From: Candidatus Fermentibacterota bacterium
GTDB taxonomy: Bacteria; JAFGKV01
Length of the DNA stretch: 18,460 bases
Assembly: GCA_030620115.1 (NCBI GenBank)
Contig: JAUXFG010000073.1
Location: 1-18,460 of the forward strand
Reading direction: 5' to 3'
A model generated the notes under the pieces. It was given only the letters and a program-made list of their open reading frames with translations, did not search any database and was not told the DNA's origin. Both the position numbers and the translations under genes were made by a program. Position 1 is the stretch's first letter, and each line of letters opens with the position of its first letter. Shown here in pieces: positions 145 to 18,460 of this stretch.

Positions 145-932
145 CTACAATGCAGAAAAGAATGGGCACAGGTCAATCGCCTTGCTACACAAGGTGAAAC
201 CCGGCTCCAAAACGGCTAAACTGTTACCATCGATGCATGTATTCCAGATCAAGCACGTTTCCTTGGACCTTAAGCACACCCCGAACATCGTTCCATTGAC
301 GCTCTGAATTCCCGCCCCAAATGCGATACCAGTAGAGTTTGTGCAGGATAATATCTTCAGCGCTGGCCAGATTGAACGACCGGCCTTGTTCCCGTCCTGC
401 GACAACGCCCTTCTCAGCTCTCTGAAAAGCCTGCTGGTCGTAACCCGCATTTCTCACCGGCCATCTGCTGCAACGCTGCATTTGGCCCTGCCTGCTGCGT
501 TACGCTCCTTCGGACTCCTCGACGTATCGCAGGGGATACGCCTGCGGGGTCCTCGGTCACAAGCCTTGCAGCCACAGCCAACTACACCGCTTCGCGACGA
601 AGGCCGGTGAGAAGTGCGGGCTAAGCGCCTCTCTTGAGCACGAAGATGTCGATCTTGAGCATGGTCGATAGATGGATGAGGTTGAAGGAGGCCAGACGTC
701 GAATGGCGTCCAGGATCATGTTGGCATCGATGTAGTAGTCCTTTTCGAGCGCCTCGACCAGAAGCCGAACATGGCTTGGTTCCAGGTCAGCGATCATGTC
801 GACGTCGAGCGTCGCACGAGGCAGGCCATGGGCTGAACTGGCTACTGAGCCTCCGATGAAGTACCCCACACCCAAGCGATCAAAGGCTTCCACTACAGGT
901 TCAAGAGCGAGAATGATGTCCGGCTTGCTCAA
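145..932 (-). pseudogene. MNT/AbiEii-type nucleotidyltransferase, split by a 179-bp element
   Basis: The N-terminal part (932 down to 621) is 103 residues from a TTG start. It contains GGSVASSAHGLPRATLDVD, the GGS-x-DVD signature of MNT-type nucleotidyltransferases, in which the Asp residues bind metal. Translation stops at a TAG whose TA is target DNA and whose G is the first base of an inserted element (443-621). The C-terminal part (440 down to 224) carries AFQRAEKG and EDIILHKLYWYR, typical of the family's second half. Removing the element plus one TA gives GCT TAC GAC, an uninterrupted reading frame of about 175 residues, so the insertion is the disrupting event. The restored frame then ends at TAA after MHRW. 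A shift of one base there opens a further 26 codons to 145, so a second frameshift is possible. The TTG start overlaps the TGA of the upstream gene, which suggests translational coupling. Whether the 103-residue fragment has any function is unknown. Confidence 0.75.
443..621. mobile_element. 179-bp MITE-like element, copy 1
   Basis: The left end reads ACCCGCATTTCTCACCGG and the right end CCGGTGAGAAGTGCGGGC, forming imperfect terminal inverted repeats of about 18 bp. TA dinucleotides flank it at 441-442 and 622-623, as expected of a TA target-site duplication in the IS630/Tc1/mariner style. There is no transposase reading frame, so it would have to be moved in trans. A second copy of exactly the same length and orientation lies at 17939-18117. 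The ends and a central block around GGATACGCCTGCGGG are the best conserved parts. It interrupts the nucleotidyltransferase gene. Confidence 0.85.
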
Positions 933-3544: not shown

Positions 3545-6500
3545 TCATCGGGCTTCCGCGAGCGGGGTAACCACTGCCCTGCCCCGTACTCGATGCCAGA
3601 GTCTGGCGATTGCCCATCCTAGGCGCGTCATGATCCAGTAGGTGGCTGGGATCGCGGTGAGGATGAGTATGGTGCTGCTGGCAAGGCCACCGATGGATGA
3701 GAGGGCGAGATTTTCCCAGATGTCCTTGCCCTCGGCAGTGTCAGCAATCTTGATGAGGAGCGGCAGGAGCCCCGCAATGGTGGTGCCGCTGGTGAGCAGG
3801 ATGGATCGCATCTGGATACGGGTGCCGCTGCAGATCGCTTCCTTAAGAAGCGCCTTGCGTTCATCACCGGGCAGTCGCCAGAGATCCACACCGCCAAGGC
3901 GTGCGATCTTTGGAACCAGACTGCTGGCGTAGGAGCGTTCCGCTACCGAATCCCGAATCTGCAGGCGGAATCTATTGATCAAGAGGATCGCATTGTTGAC
4001 TACAATGCCAAACATGAGTACTAAACCGATCTTTGCGGACGAATCAAAGACCGAATCCGTGGCCCAAAAGATCCCCACGACACCGGTCAGAGCCATGGGG
4101 ATGGAGAGAATCACCAGAAGAGGCAGAATCATACTCTCGAAGAGCGCCGACAGGGCCATGAAAATAAAAAGAAGTGTGAGCCACAGGAGGGCCTCCATCT
4201 CTTCTTCCTCTTCTTCGGTCAAAGGCTCACCCGAGACATCTTCGGCTGAATAGCCGTAGGGAAGATCGATGCCAGCAATAATGTCGGCAATGAACCGCTG
4301 TCGCATCCTGTCCGTGCCGATATACTCCCAATTGATCCGCCTGGCGTATCGTTGATTCTCGCGTTGGATCGATCCCATAACGGGACGTGTTTCTACGGAG
4401 ATCAGATCCCCTAAACGCACACGTTCTCCACTCATGGTGGTGAGGGTCTTGCTCATGATTTGCTCGTACTGGATGTCGTCCGCGTCTGCAAATGAAAGCT
4501 GCAGCCTCTGATCCTCCCCGCCTACGATCATGTGCCATGGCGTGTCGATACCGAGCAAGCGCCGTAGGAATCCTAGTACCTCAGCCACGCTGAGATGGTG
4601 ACTCGCCAGGCGATCTCGATGGAAAAAGACCACGGTCTCGTCCGATGCGTCACGCTCGAAGCGCTGGCCGCTGGTGAGCCTCATATTCCTGACCCGCCGG
4701 TTGCGCTCGAGACGCGCCATTACCCCGTCACAGATTTCGTCCAGGAATTTGCTGTTGTAGCCGGTAACCTTGACCAGGGAGTTGCTGATACCACCGCCAC
4801 GCCCGCCTTTCAGATAGGGATCGCCAAAACCATTGATCCAGACGAACATGCCCCCCAATTCCTCGGCCAAAAGGATGAGTCGGTTACGAAAAAGCTCGGG
4901 ATACTGCGAACGCAACCGGTATGGCTCGAACTTCACCTCGAGAAAACCACGGTTCTCCCAGCTGGTAGTCTTCATATGGATCCCGTCAGGGATGGGGAGA
5001 AGCTCTGTCTCGAAACCTCTGATGGTCTCGCTGGAGAGCACTACATCCGTTCCCACGGGCCGTTCGATATAAGCGACGAGACGTTCCTCGCTTTCACGCC
5101 TCCAGAACCCGCCTTGGTCGATCTCCTTGTCGAACACGTAGCCTGCGCCCACAAAAAGGCCAAGCATCAGAATCACCGGGTACCACCAGATCTTCAGATG
5201 CAACGCGGTGATCTTCTCCACAAAACTCACGAAGAAGCCAACCACCAAGAGCAGACCCATAATGCCCACGCCCCAGGGCCAGTGGTCGATCAGGCTTCTG
5301 GAGCCTTTGAGAAGCAGAAAGGCGATGCATGCAATCACCGCCAAGCCGAGCATCACTCCGCTCCACCGAACCAAGAAGGCCAGGCCGACCGGGCCTTGAT
5401 CTTCCGTGGCCGCCGCCCGAGCGTGCATCATCTCCTTTTGTGCAGGCCCTCGTAAGGCCACGGGGATCCAGCAGAAAGCGACGAAAATCGATGCGATCAT
5501 GGCGATGCCGACGCTTACTGCCAGCGGTACATAGTAGATCGCGAGACGCCCTGAGAGGAAGATGAACGACAGGAAGGCAACAATGGTGGTCAGGGTGGTT
5601 GCCAAAATGGGAAAGGCTACCTCGCGTGTTCCCCCGACAAGCGCCTCTCGCGAGTCATCGTCATACGTCTTTGACAACCGCCGATGAATGGCATCCAATA
5701 CCAGGATGCTGTTGTCCAGAAGCATGCCAAAGCACACGGTCAGGCCGCTGATGGTGATGAAGTTGACCGAGATCCCGAGGAAGTAGAAGAGCGCGAGGCA
5801 GATCACGATAGCCAGGAGGATAGAAGAAATCACAATAGCGGTGGTGCGTACTCGACGGAGCGCCATGGCCAGGAGCAGAAAGAGCACCACGAGGATAATA
5901 AGCGACCGGTACACCAGTTCCAGGAGTTTCTCCTCAAGCTCTTTTCCCTCGTCACTATCGATCTCAAACGTCACGGGAAAGGGCAGAGTTCGCTCGAGCT
6001 CCGGGAGCTCCTTCCTGAGCCGCTTGCTCACTGTCACCGCATTCTGGCCGCTACGTTTGGCAACAGTCGCCTGGATCACATTGTCTCCATTGATCCGCAC
6101 GAAGTAGGCCGGATCTTCGTAACTCTGCTCTATAGCCGCCACGTGATTCAGGGTGATCGGCTGCCCGGCAACCATACGAAGCACGGTCTTTCTAAGAGAC
6201 GAGAGGCTCACCGAATCACTCACGCTCACCGTGAGCTCCATGCCGGTCCGGCGGACAACCCCTGCAGGCAGAATATCATCCAAAGCCTCTACACGGTTGT
6301 AGATGCCATCAGCAGTGAGACCATAGCGTTCCATGAGGCTCAAGTCGAGCAGGATTCTCACCAGCCTCCTCGCCCCACCCTGCAACTCCGCATCAGCCAC
6401 ACCTGGGATGGAAAGAAGCCGCGGGATGAGCCAGGATTCAGCCTCATCGCGCAGCTCATTGGTGGAGAGAGGAGATACAAGGCTGACGGTGAAGAAATCA

Positions 6501-11477: not shown

Positions 11478-11540
11478 TATGAGAAGGCACGATCCGCCAG
11501 CCCGCGGATGCCCCTACATCGAAGCGCCCCACCTCCCCCA

Positions 11541-11579
11541 CCCAGATTCTTCGGTCACTCCCCTCCCTCAGAATGACAC
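11541..11579. repeat. 39-bp dispersed repeat (CCCAGATTCTTCGGTC unit), copy 1
   Basis: It begins CCCAGATTCTTCGGTC and ends CTCAGAATGACAC. By eye it matches 18415-18453 at 36 of 39 positions in the same orientation. From memory, sequences of this form occur as intergenic repeats in many bacteria. Confidence 0.85.
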
Positions 11580-11637
11580 GTCCTGTACGTCCAACACGAG
11601 CCATCAGCCAGAAAAATGTTGTATCTCTGGAGGGACG

Positions 11638-11653
11638 TCCGCCAGCTGGCGGA
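11638..11653. repeat. 16-bp perfect palindrome TCCGCCAGCTGGCGGA, copy 2 of 4
   Basis: This is identical to the palindrome at 1360-1375. It lies about 90 bp from the third copy. Confidence 0.9.
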
Positions 11654-11764: not shown

Positions 11765-11804
11765 TTCTCCCATTCCAGCAATCCGAAATCCTCCCCCTCC
11801 TCCT

Positions 11805-11850
11805 CAGATTGCAGATTCCAGATTGCAAGATTATAGATTCTCCCCCTTCC
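11805..11850. repeat. CAGATTGCA-type repeat, inverted relative at 15017-15064
   Basis: This segment repeats CAGATT/GATTGCA units and ends AGATTATAGATTCTCCCCC. The reverse complement of 15017-15042 carries the same AGATTATAGATTCTCCCCC. The two copies flank the propeller gene pair in opposite orientations. Confidence 0.75.
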
Positions 11851-14824: not shown

Positions 14825-14863
14825 GCCCGTTTCTCTGCCAAAACCGGTGAGAAATCAGGGCTA
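14825..14863. mobile_element. probable remnant of the 179-bp element
   Basis: The right half, CCGGTGAGAAATCAGGGCTA (14844-14863), matches the right end plus TA of the 179-bp element at 17 of 20 positions. The left half, GCCCGTTTCTCTGCC, resembles the element's left end with small gaps. The interior is missing, leaving only the two ends joined by AAAA. An ancient internally deleted copy is the simplest reading. Chance similarity of so short a piece is possible. Confidence 0.45.
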
Positions 14864-14985: not shown

Positions 14986-15064
14986 GATTGCTGGATTGCT
15001 GGATTGCGAGAATGGAGGGAAAAGGGGGAGAATCTATAATCTGTCAATCTGAAATCTATAATCT
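14986..15064. repeat. tandem GGATTGCT units and CTATAATCT repeats
   Basis: GATTGCTGGATTGCTGGATTGC is a tandem run of 8-mers. A purine-rich stretch and two copies of AATCTATAATCT follow. Part is the inverted relative of 11805-11850. It fills the gap between the kinase stop codon and the propeller 1 promoter region. No terminator with a T-tract is visible for the kinase. Confidence 0.7.
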
Positions 15065-15112
15065 AAGAAGACGACGGACGCCCGACGAGATCTCCGGGGC
15101 GGCTCAGTCGAT

Positions 15113-16480
15113 TCACATCGCCTGCAATGAATATACCCGTTCCGGCGAGGTTTCGGAAATGCTGTCACGCGTGTTGAAATCGATGAAGAAGCGTGTCGGG
15201 CCATCTGGAGGTGACTCAAGGTCGAAGTCAAAGCCGTGGAGAGTGAGAACTTGATGGGCCAAGGTCAGACCAACGCCCTGCCCGTGGCTCTTGGTGGTGA
15301 AGAAGGGGGAGAAGAGATTGGCCTGCGCCTCGGGGCTCAAGCCGGGTCCGCTGTCTTCCACCGCAGCGAAGAAGCGACCATTCGATACACCGGCATGGAT
15401 TTCAATGTGTCCGTCATAGTCGATGGCCTCCACCGCATTCTGCACTACGCTCACAAACACCTGCTCCATTTGGACGGCATCCATTGCTATTGGCTCGATA
15501 TAGTCCTCCAAGACAAGCCTGAGATCAATCCCCCTGCGGGCACACTCAGGCTCCATGAGGCGTACGACCCGAGAGAGTATCTGTCCGAGATCCACTGGGC
15601 GAAGCACCGGGGGTGGCACACGAACCACGTCGGCATACTTCCGCATGAAGAGGTTGAGGTTATCGGTACTCCGGATGGCGACATGCAGAGCCGTGTTGAT
15701 ATCTTCCCTCTCCTCACTGCTGAGTTGATCACCATAGACCAATGCTGAGTGGAGAATGGAATTGGTCGCCCCCACCGTGTTGTTGATCTCGTGTGACAGG
15801 GTCCTGATTAACGACTCATACGCGAACCTTTCGGTAGCCCATAGCTCATGGGTGAGGTCATCGATCACAAAGAAGCTTCGAGGGGAGCCGCCTTCATCAA
15901 GCTCGGAGTGCGTGAATCTGAGACGGCGCCGACAATGCCGGCCGAGAAGCCGCGATTCCCCTTTCGGTACCGCGCTCAGCTGACGAATGAGCGGTGAGGT
16001 AAGCTCTGAGAGCACCTTTCCCGTGATCTCCTCAGGCGAGATATCGAGCAGACGGACTGCCGCAGGGCTGACATCACAGATGCGACCGCCATGATCCGTG
16101 ATAATGATTCCCGAAGGAGAGGCATTCATGGCCTTGCGCACGAGAATATCCTGCTCCTCCAAGCGCGTCCGTTCCTGTCGGAGGCGGGTGACCATCTCGC
16201 TGTGAAGGCCAATGAACTCGTCAATGTCGGAAAGACCGGTCCGTCGAAAACGATGGGTCAAATCCCCATCCCTGAGCCACCTTAGCCCCAGATTCACCAT
16301 CTGTCCGGGCACACGAAGTGCCCGGAGCATAAGGCACATCGACGCCAGTGACGCCGGCACGGCAATCGCCAGGACGAGTATCCACAGCCGGTGATCCTGC
16401 CACAAGAGGAGCCCGACGACGCCGCCACATAAGAGGTGGAGCAAGACCAGATACCCCGTGAAGATACGCTGAATTGTCAT
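15113..16480 (-). CDS. PAS-containing membrane sensor histidine kinase
   Basis: This encodes 455 residues. Two membrane helices (about 6-27 and 32-53) are joined by only about five residues, so there is essentially no extracytoplasmic sensor. A HAMP-like segment follows (about 60-105), then a PAS domain (about 110-205: NASPSGIIITDHGGRICDVSPAA). The phospho-acceptor motif LSHEINNTVG has H230. The ATPase N box is VVQNAVEAI (N348), the G1 box VEDSGPGLS (D376), the F box FSPFFTTK, and the G2 box GQGVGLTL. The HEINNT form is like NtrB/AtoS-type kinases that pair with NtrC-family regulators. The ATG overlaps the regulator's TGA (ATGA), showing co-translation. A longer in-frame extension upstream only overlaps the regulator gene. 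The signal is unknown, but a membrane or cytoplasmic cue fits the missing loop. Confidence 0.93.
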   Translation of the reverse strand: MTIQRIFTGYLVLLHLLCGGVVGLLLWQDHRLWILVLAIAVPASLASMCLMLRALRVPGQMVNLGLRWLRDGDLTHRFRRTGLSDIDEFIGLHSEMVTRLRQERTRLEEQDILVRKAMNASPSGIIITDHGGRICDVSPAAVRLLDISPEEITGKVLSELTSPLIRQLSAVPKGESRLLGRHCRRRLRFTHSELDEGGSPRSFFVIDDLTHELWATERFAYESLIRTLSHEINNTVGATNSILHSALVYGDQLSSEEREDINTALHVAIRSTDNLNLFMRKYADVVRVPPPVLRPVDLGQILSRVVRLMEPECARRGIDLRLVLEDYIEPIAMDAVQMEQVFVSVVQNAVEAIDYDGHIEIHAGVSNGRFFAAVEDSGPGLSPEAQANLFSPFFTTKSHGQGVGLTLAHQVLTLHGFDFDLESPPDGPTRFFIDFNTRDSISETSPERVYSLQAM

Positions 16481-17883
16481 GGAACTATCCGATGTTTCTC
16501 CAAACGGCGGTAAAGCGCTCCGCGGCTCAGGCCCAGAGCGGTGGCTGCCCTTGAAACATTGCCTCCATACTCCTTCAACGAGCGCAGGATCATTTCGCGT
16601 TCCATCTCGTCCAGCGTCACTCTCCCCGGTTGAGGAACCATTCCTTTGGTCGGTTCCTTCTCCTGCATGTGTGCGGCCATGTCGAAATCCTCCGCTCTCA
16701 GCGAATTCCGCGGCGTGAGAAGGATGGTACGCTCCACGAGATGTTTCAGCTGTCGAACATTGCCGGGCCATTCCTGAACAATGAGCCAATCCATGGCGTC
16801 TGGGGAGATCTCGAGATCAGGACGCCGGTATATCCCACCAATACAATGCAGGAAGTGCGCGGCCAAGGCCGGAATGTCGCCTTTTCGTTCCCTGAGAGGC
16901 GGCATGTGCACCACGATCAAATTGAGGCGATAGAGAAGATCCTCACGGAAGCTTCCTGTCTCAATCATGGAGACAAGATCCTGGTTTGTTGCGGAGATGA
17001 CCCTGACATTCACCGTTCTGCTCGTGCTCGACCCAACGCGCTCAAAGGTTCGATCTTGCAGTACCCTGAGCAGCTTCACCTGGCAGCTGATGTCGAGATC
17101 CCCTATTTCGTCGAGAAAAATCGTGCCCTCATCCGCAGCCTCGAAGCGTCCAATGCGCGACTGCCGCGCATCAGTAAAGGCGCCCTTCACATGCCCAAAG
17201 AGCTCGCTCTCGAACAACGAGGTTGGAATACCGCCAAGGTTGACCTTGACGAATGGATGTTCCTTGCGCGCACTGTTGCGCCATAGCGCTTCAGCGACCA
17301 GTTCCTTCCCCGTGCCGCTCTCACCGGTAATCAACACCGGCGCATCGGTCGCAGCCACGCGCCCTATAACCTCCAGCATGCGCACGAACCGTGGATCTTT
17401 GCCTATGAGACCCGAGAAATCGTGGACGGCATCGAGTTCTGCTCGACTCATGGGGGCCGTGGTGGCTTCCGTCCTACGGAACTCGGCAAGCCCCAGAGCT
17501 GTTTGGACCGACTGACGAATCTGCTCATGAGTCCACGGCTTTGTAATGAAATCAATGGCGCCCGCCTTCACGCCCCTTACCGCAAGTTCAACCGATCCCC
17601 ACGCAGTGATAAGAACCACCGGCAGGTGTGGGTATCTCCCCTTGATTCGTTGGAGAAGCACCAGCCCCTCTTCCCCCGTGGTGCTGCGAGAGAAATTCAT
17701 GTCCTGGAGCGCCAAAGCAAATGGCCGTTCACCCAAGGTCTGGAGTGCCTCTTCGGGATTGGAGGCGGTATATGGGGCATAGCCTGACTGCTTGAGTAAC
17801 AGCGCCAGCGAAGTGGTCACCGCGTCGTCATCATCAATGATCAGCACATTCCGCGTGTCTGTGTTATCGATCATGGTAGGCAT
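16477..17883 (-). CDS. sigma54-dependent NtrC-family response regulator
   Basis: This encodes 468 residues. The receiver domain (about 12-130) has acidic DDDD at 17-20, phospho-acceptor D61 in LQDMNFSR, T93 and K115. The AAA+ domain (about 155-385) has Walker A GESGTGKE (187-194), the sigma54-contacting loop GAFTDA (234-239) and Walker B GTIFLDEIGD (253-262). The C-terminal Fis-type helix-turn-helix (about 425-465) includes GGNVSRAATALGLSRGALYRR. All residues needed for activation look intact. The start at 17883 follows GGAGAGGAG, whereas a longer frame to 17898 begins with TTG inside that ribosome site. It is first in a two-gene operon with the kinase. A -24/-12 promoter with an upstream inverted repeat lies at 18182-18264, suggesting positive autoregulation. 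The MNFSRxTTGEEGL form is typical of regulators that control transporter operons in FCB bacteria (recalled, not tested). Confidence 0.95.
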   Translation of the reverse strand: MPTMIDNTDTRNVLIIDDDDAVTTSLALLLKQSGYAPYTASNPEEALQTLGERPFALALQDMNFSRSTTGEEGLVLLQRIKGRYPHLPVVLITAWGSVELAVRGVKAGAIDFITKPWTHEQIRQSVQTALGLAEFRRTEATTAPMSRAELDAVHDFSGLIGKDPRFVRMLEVIGRVAATDAPVLITGESGTGKELVAEALWRNSARKEHPFVKVNLGGIPTSLFESELFGHVKGAFTDARQSRIGRFEAADEGTIFLDEIGDLDISCQVKLLRVLQDRTFERVGSSTSRTVNVRVISATNQDLVSMIETGSFREDLLYRLNLIVVHMPPLRERKGDIPALAAHFLHCIGGIYRRPDLEISPDAMDWLIVQEWPGNVRQLKHLVERTILLTPRNSLRAEDFDMAAHMQEKEPTKGMVPQPGRVTLDEMEREMILRSLKEYGGNVSRAATALGLSRGALYRRLEKHRIVP

Positions 17884-17938
17884 GTATCTCCTCTCCAAAT
17901 GGAGAACCTACGTCCGCTCACTCTCCAATATCCACTTA

Positions 17939-18117
17939 GCCCGCATTTCTCACCGACTTTCGGCTGAAGCAGCCGATATGGCACTGCCTGCTTCGTTACG
18001 CTCTGTCGGCTTCCTCGCCGTATCACAGAGGATACGCCTGCGGGATCCTCAGTCGCAAGCCTCGCATTCAGAACCATCTCGGCGCCTTCGCTTCGAAACC
18101 CGGTGAGAAGTGCGGGC
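17939..18117. mobile_element. 179-bp MITE-like element, copy 2
   Basis: The left end is GCCCGCATTTCTCACCG and the right end CGGTGAGAAGTGCGGGC, near-perfect inverted repeats. TA at 17937-17938 and 18118-18119 flanks it. Length and orientation equal those of copy 1 at 443-621, with clear divergence in the interior. It lies 55 bp upstream of the response regulator start, inside the predicted leader of the regulator operon. No coding potential of its own is evident. Confidence 0.85.
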
Positions 18118-18181
18118 TAGCGATCGGGACCCAGGATACTATACTATGCCGAGCACTTGGAACCCTCCAATCTCTTGCCCC

Positions 18182-18388: not shown

Positions 18389-18414
18389 TTCAATGTTCAA
18401 TCCCCCCCTCCCCA

Positions 18415-18453
18415 CCCAGATTCTTCGGTCGCTTCGCTCCCTCAGAATGACAC
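18415..18453. repeat. 39-bp dispersed repeat, copy 2
   Basis: Same unit and orientation as 11541-11579, differing at three positions by eye. Within it GGTCGCTTCGCTCC shows the GAAGCGA-type core seen in many intergenic repeats. Confidence 0.85.
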
Positions 18454-18460
18454 CTATTGT

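Follow-up and report, generated by a model that had tools for sequence, protein, structure and literature searches.

A putative MenT1-like toxin gene interrupted by a MITE with IS1380-type ends in a Candidatus Fermentibacterota genome

On the explanation that best accounts for the locus as a whole, insertion has cost an overlapping antitoxin-toxin gene pair in a Candidatus Fermentibacterota bacterium its toxin gene, a reading to which we give a probability of about 0.87. The toxin gene is broken twice, in its middle by a MITE and at its 3′ end by a second repeat, and is dead, while the antitoxin gene is intact. The stretch of DNA analysed, hereafter the window, is 18,460 nt long and makes up the entire contig C25 of a draft MAG of 4.1 Mb in 296 contigs. 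Homologues were drawn from 60 genomes together with a GTDB genome set (289 relatives, 80 kept), which yielded 83 loci for examination; two of the genomes compared belong to the same family, and the next ones share only the domain. No Rfam family was matched anywhere in the window. As an instance of a gene lost to insertion, the locus itself is clear but ordinary, and the abundant, apparently unnamed IS1380-type MITE responsible for it is of greater interest than the toxin locus.

The nucleotidyltransferase gene, its two lesions and its partner

The nucleotidyltransferase (NTase) gene lies on the minus strand in two parts. The N-terminal 103 codons (624-932, with a TTG start at 932) hold the residues T41, D43 and D45, and the C-terminal part (224-440) holds K138 and D155. 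Between them stands an element of 179 bp (443-621; 183 bp including the TAs), flanked by the two copies of a TA target duplication (left, 441-442; right, 622-623) and bounded by inverted ends of 25 nt (441-465 and 599-623) that are 88% complementary. The right-hand TA, together with base 621, the first G of the element, forms an in-frame premature TAG at 623-621, and closing the site with one TA kept restores a single open frame of 175 codons that runs to a TAA at 226-224. A preliminary description had already reported the split by a 179-bp element and the origin of the premature stop, and both observations are correct base for base; the start that it gave for the locus, position 145, falls within the second repeat and outside the gene. 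It had also deduced an intact gene followed by an insertion, and the corresponding check, that the two halves belong to one protein, bears this out, the alignment being unbroken across the junction in 83 of 83 NTase homologues. The nearest orthologue from the same family (G001) is 45% identical to the NTase, and an apparently intact paralogue on contig C289 of the same genome (L046), with its own partner gene upstream, is 52% identical. This continuity, combined with the membership of the element in a repeated family (493 termini against 0 in a control, see below), makes the split pattern more than a matter of chance.

The joined frame of about 175 residues described earlier is indeed open and contains both halves; it is not the whole protein, since all but one of the relatives whose alignment reaches Trp175 extend 17-37 residues beyond it, and the NTase frame of the window stops directly after Trp175, at a TAA that lies within or abuts a second repeat. 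This second lesion was overlooked in the preliminary description. The repeat occupies positions 1-228 of the window, where 227 of 228 bases are common to positions 1-228 of contig C134; the two contigs share these first 228 bases and continue into unrelated DNA, and both start at the same base of the repeat, a pattern typical of assemblies interrupted at repeats. The truncation at Trp175 and the presence of the repeat together indicate that the 3′ end of the NTase gene has given way to one end of a second element, which is probably mobile in nature. Degenerate copies of this end are present on contigs C14 and C158, with a 22-bp piece on C118. It is not a high-copy end in the genome, gave no match among plasmids and only short, weak matches against 193 genomes, and its 15-mer matches in viral contigs are probably due to chance.

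The earlier assignment of the gene to the nucleotidyltransferases holds. Its family corresponds in Pfam to DUF6036 and, weakly, to AbiEii; PADLOC and NCBIfam returned nothing useful for either the NTase or its partner. Sequence comparison relates the NTase weakly to MenT1, with E-values of 2e-4 to 7e-3. For a structure model of an orthologue (pLDDT 90.5), Foldseek placed MenT1 of Mycobacterium tuberculosis first (E 1e-6), and structural alignment with MenT1 (VIA) gave a Z of 17.1 and an rmsd of 3.2 over 174 residues, the next protein scoring Z 13. Across the family, the residues T41, D43, D45, K138 and D155 vary little or not at all; by motif and spacing, they appear to parallel T39, D41, D43, K137 and D152 of MenT1 (PMC10435456, PMC11375011). 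The gene pair is best read as MenAT1-like, on the strength of these residues, of the modelled fold and of the antitoxin profile matched by relatives of the partner (see below), with toxin and antitoxin as the putative roles of the two products.

The partner, a putative antitoxin gene, is intact at 929-1186 on the minus strand, with a likely TTG start at 1186 and a product of 85 aa, its longest frame beginning at 1219. It overlaps the start of the NTase gene by 4 bp, an overlap that is common in relatives, and a homologue of it stands directly upstream of the NTase at 64 of 83 loci. The toxin-antitoxin-like pairing suspected in the preliminary description is thereby upheld, with the toxin as the broken half. 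The further suggestion that the partner is left unpaired applies to this locus and not to the genome as a whole, which carries the apparently intact homologous pair on C289. Eleven of 32 members of the partner family match PF18993, the Rv0078B-related antitoxin profile, albeit weakly (best E 1.7e-4); the partner encoded in the window gave no Pfam match itself, and the model of its structure resembled no solved fold at a significant level, so that it is called an antitoxin on the basis of the family profile and of gene order. In that order, with the antitoxin upstream, the pair agrees with menA1, for which it was described in 15 of 21 genes (PMC10435456). A HEPN-MNT pair was also considered and rejected, since neither the partner in the window nor any of its 31 relatives gave a HEPN match.

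An abundant MITE and its IS1380-type ends

The 179-bp element is short, has inverted ends and a target duplication, contains no transposase frame and is dispersed in many copies, as is characteristic of a MITE. Its strand is predicted to fold into a long hairpin (z -5.5). A blastn search of the genome returned 46 matches, the best other copy being 95% identical, and an initial search put forward 322 candidates and scored 40 of them. Matches to the terminal motif TANCCCGNANTTCTCACC number 493 (239 + 254) in the genome with at most one mismatch, against 0 for the reversed control, and 650 (310 + 340) with at most two, against 5; from these terminus counts, the copy number is roughly 250-325. ERIC has a published count of 711 copies in a single genome (PMC10969869), a figure beside which the abundance of the window MITE is high without being unprecedented. 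The lengths of 52 extracted copies lie between 54 and 376 bp, the commonest being 183 bp, and 31 of the 52 are bordered on both sides by TA, for the most part within a YTAR context. In 18% of 44 copies the closed site is crossed by a frame of 250 codons or more, as compared with 60% of random points; insertions avoid genes without sparing them, and the disruption of a gene is therefore unusual, not unique.

The window contains a second copy at 17937-18119, 79% identical to the first, which lies just upstream of a gene for a sigma-54-type response regulator (ORF 16477-17898, minus strand). A lone MITE-like terminus, GGTGAGAAATCAGGGCTA, is found at 14846-14863, with no recognisable partner end nearby, and is possibly a decayed copy. 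Other short dispersed repeats are present in the window (11528-11586 and 18402-18460; 11800-11848 and 15022-15070; 1360-1388 and 11625-11653), representing several families, among which are a CCGCCAGCTGGCGG palindrome and a repeat of the form TTCTTCGGTC..CCCTCAGAATGACA.

The parentage of the MITE is suggested by its ends. On plasmids of Pseudomonas putida (pKF715A), Bradyrhizobium and R. leguminosarum, elements of the IS1380 family terminate in TAGCCCGCATTTCTCACA or close variants, and the end of the pKF715A element is identical to the ends of both window copies at 16-17 of 18 bases. Another genome (G274) encodes an IS1380 transposase (NF033539, E 8e-117) at a distance of 218 bp from an exact terminus. 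The MITE is thus probably a non-autonomous derivative of IS1380, to judge from its ends, and an IS1380 transposase would be expected to mobilise it in trans. No convincing autonomous IS1380 copy with these ends was found in the bin; its loss from the genome or a gap in the assembly might account for this. Members of the IS1380 family are usually credited with target duplications of 4-5 bp. The duplication in the window is TA(A) only, and the flanking 4-mers are equal in 6 of 31 copies, with no significant correlation.

Several candidate parents were set aside: a weak, divergent IS1380-like transposase at the end of contig C122, which has no such terminal inverted repeat (TIR) beside it; the IS1634 transposases of the same genome, none of which is flanked by a matching TIR; an IS1634 gene near a TIR in genome G119 (L168), which has its own, different ends; and a pair of termini in G274 (L163), which encloses ordinary genes.

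Such termini recur in other genomes, with counts of 134 in G274, 123 in G209, 76 in G120 and 72 in G259, and are absent from both same-family genomes examined. The element of G037 resembles that of the window in its length of 183 bp and in a matching palindromic core at the same place. Some copies in this unrelated genome (L051-L055, L166) have ends of the TTATTCATGA type in place of TTCTCACC, which gives the impression of a separate divergence of ends and core. A viral contig of 4.8 kb (L239, IMGVR_UViG_3300049216_000555) has the 18-base terminus in inverted orientation at 107-124 and 4670-4687, about 100 bp from each of its ends. We tentatively propose, at somewhat less than even odds, that the window element belongs to an undescribed MITE family derived from IS1380, with some 250 copies or more here and no detectable autonomous partner, and that among the several unrelated genomes with elements that share its ends, G037, by its match in length and core, suggests a shared or transferred MITE lineage.

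Proposed history of the pair and alternative readings

The ancestral state would have been an overlapping pair with the antitoxin gene first, followed by the gene for a MenT1-like tRNA-nucleotidyltransferase toxin. A MITE with IS1380-type ends would have entered the toxin gene at a TA midway along it, introducing a stop after codon 103 and parting the presumed metal-binding residues T41, D43 and D45 from the other catalytic residues, K138 and D155. A cut at this point leaves a product of 103 residues without a complete active site. The replacement of the last 20 or so codons of the toxin gene would be due to the second repeated element, and their loss inactivates the gene a second time. Neither lesion touches the frame of the antitoxin, which lies upstream. 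Decay in this direction is survivable, and is what a toxin-antitoxin pair would be expected to show, since a cell that lost its antitoxin first would be exposed to the toxin.

The identity of the element, its consequence for the enzyme and the integrity of the assembly can each be read otherwise. The TA duplicated at both ends would also suit a MITE of the Tc1/mariner (IS630) type, and TA is the usual border of MITEs in bacteria (PMC4133298). That origin is nevertheless very unlikely, as no IS630 transposase (PF13358) was found in the genome and the ends, in a comparison set made up of IS1380-family ends, match at the 16-17 of 18 bases given above. It might also be supposed that the split is neutral or even functional, with both halves made and reassembled into a working enzyme, and a frame of 85 aa (224-481), whose ATG lies within the MITE and which continues in frame into the C-terminal half, is what such an arrangement would call for. 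Against this stand the strong hairpin that precedes this second frame, the loss of about 20 C-terminal residues that are conserved in relatives and the absence of any split precedent in 83 loci, and we regard a functional split as extremely improbable.

An error of assembly, in which unrelated contigs were misjoined through a high-copy repeat, either at the MITE or in bases 1-228, has to be considered for a draft MAG of 296 contigs, many of which end in MITE termini, and the contig under study itself begins inside the 1-228 repeat. At the MITE, however, the flanks are adjacent halves of one protein and exactly one TA is duplicated, an outcome that a chance misjoin would not give; a misjoin at bases 1-228 is possible, and artefact as an explanation of the locus has a very small probability.

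Insertional loss of the toxin gene from an overlapping pair remains the preferred reading, and the single locus would then display the survivable course of toxin-antitoxin decay, in which the toxin goes first and the antitoxin stays. The matching ends would tie a very abundant, apparently unnamed MITE family to IS1380 and make its proposed mobilisation in trans readily testable. The locus also carries a warning for annotation, as two or three short hypothetical proteins would be reported in place of one former gene.

Comparison with known elements and gene pairs

Among known mobile elements, the MITE shares with IS1380 (e.g. of P. putida pKF715A and Bradyrhizobium pCB82_1) the terminal inverted repeats TAGCCCGCATTTCTCAC and a TA at both outer ends; it differs in its length of 179 bp and in having no transposase gene, and the sharing was found at the ends only. 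No IS1380-derived MITE was found in print by a literature search. With Chunjie of Geobacter, Correia, ERIC and the hupL MITE of Thiomargarita, it has in common a small size, inverted ends, a palindromic fold, a high copy number and the occasional disruption of a gene (PMC10969869, PMC4853749), whereas its ends and its parent family are different from theirs.

The gene pair, for its part, resembles MenAT1 (Rv0078A/Rv0078B) in the position of a small antitoxin gene upstream of a nucleotidyltransferase of about 196 aa, in the fold and the set of catalytic residues of the latter and in the antitoxin-family profile matched by relatives of the partner. It differs from MenT1 in that structure alignments give an identity of only about 14-17% and in that the toxin gene of the window has been inactivated.
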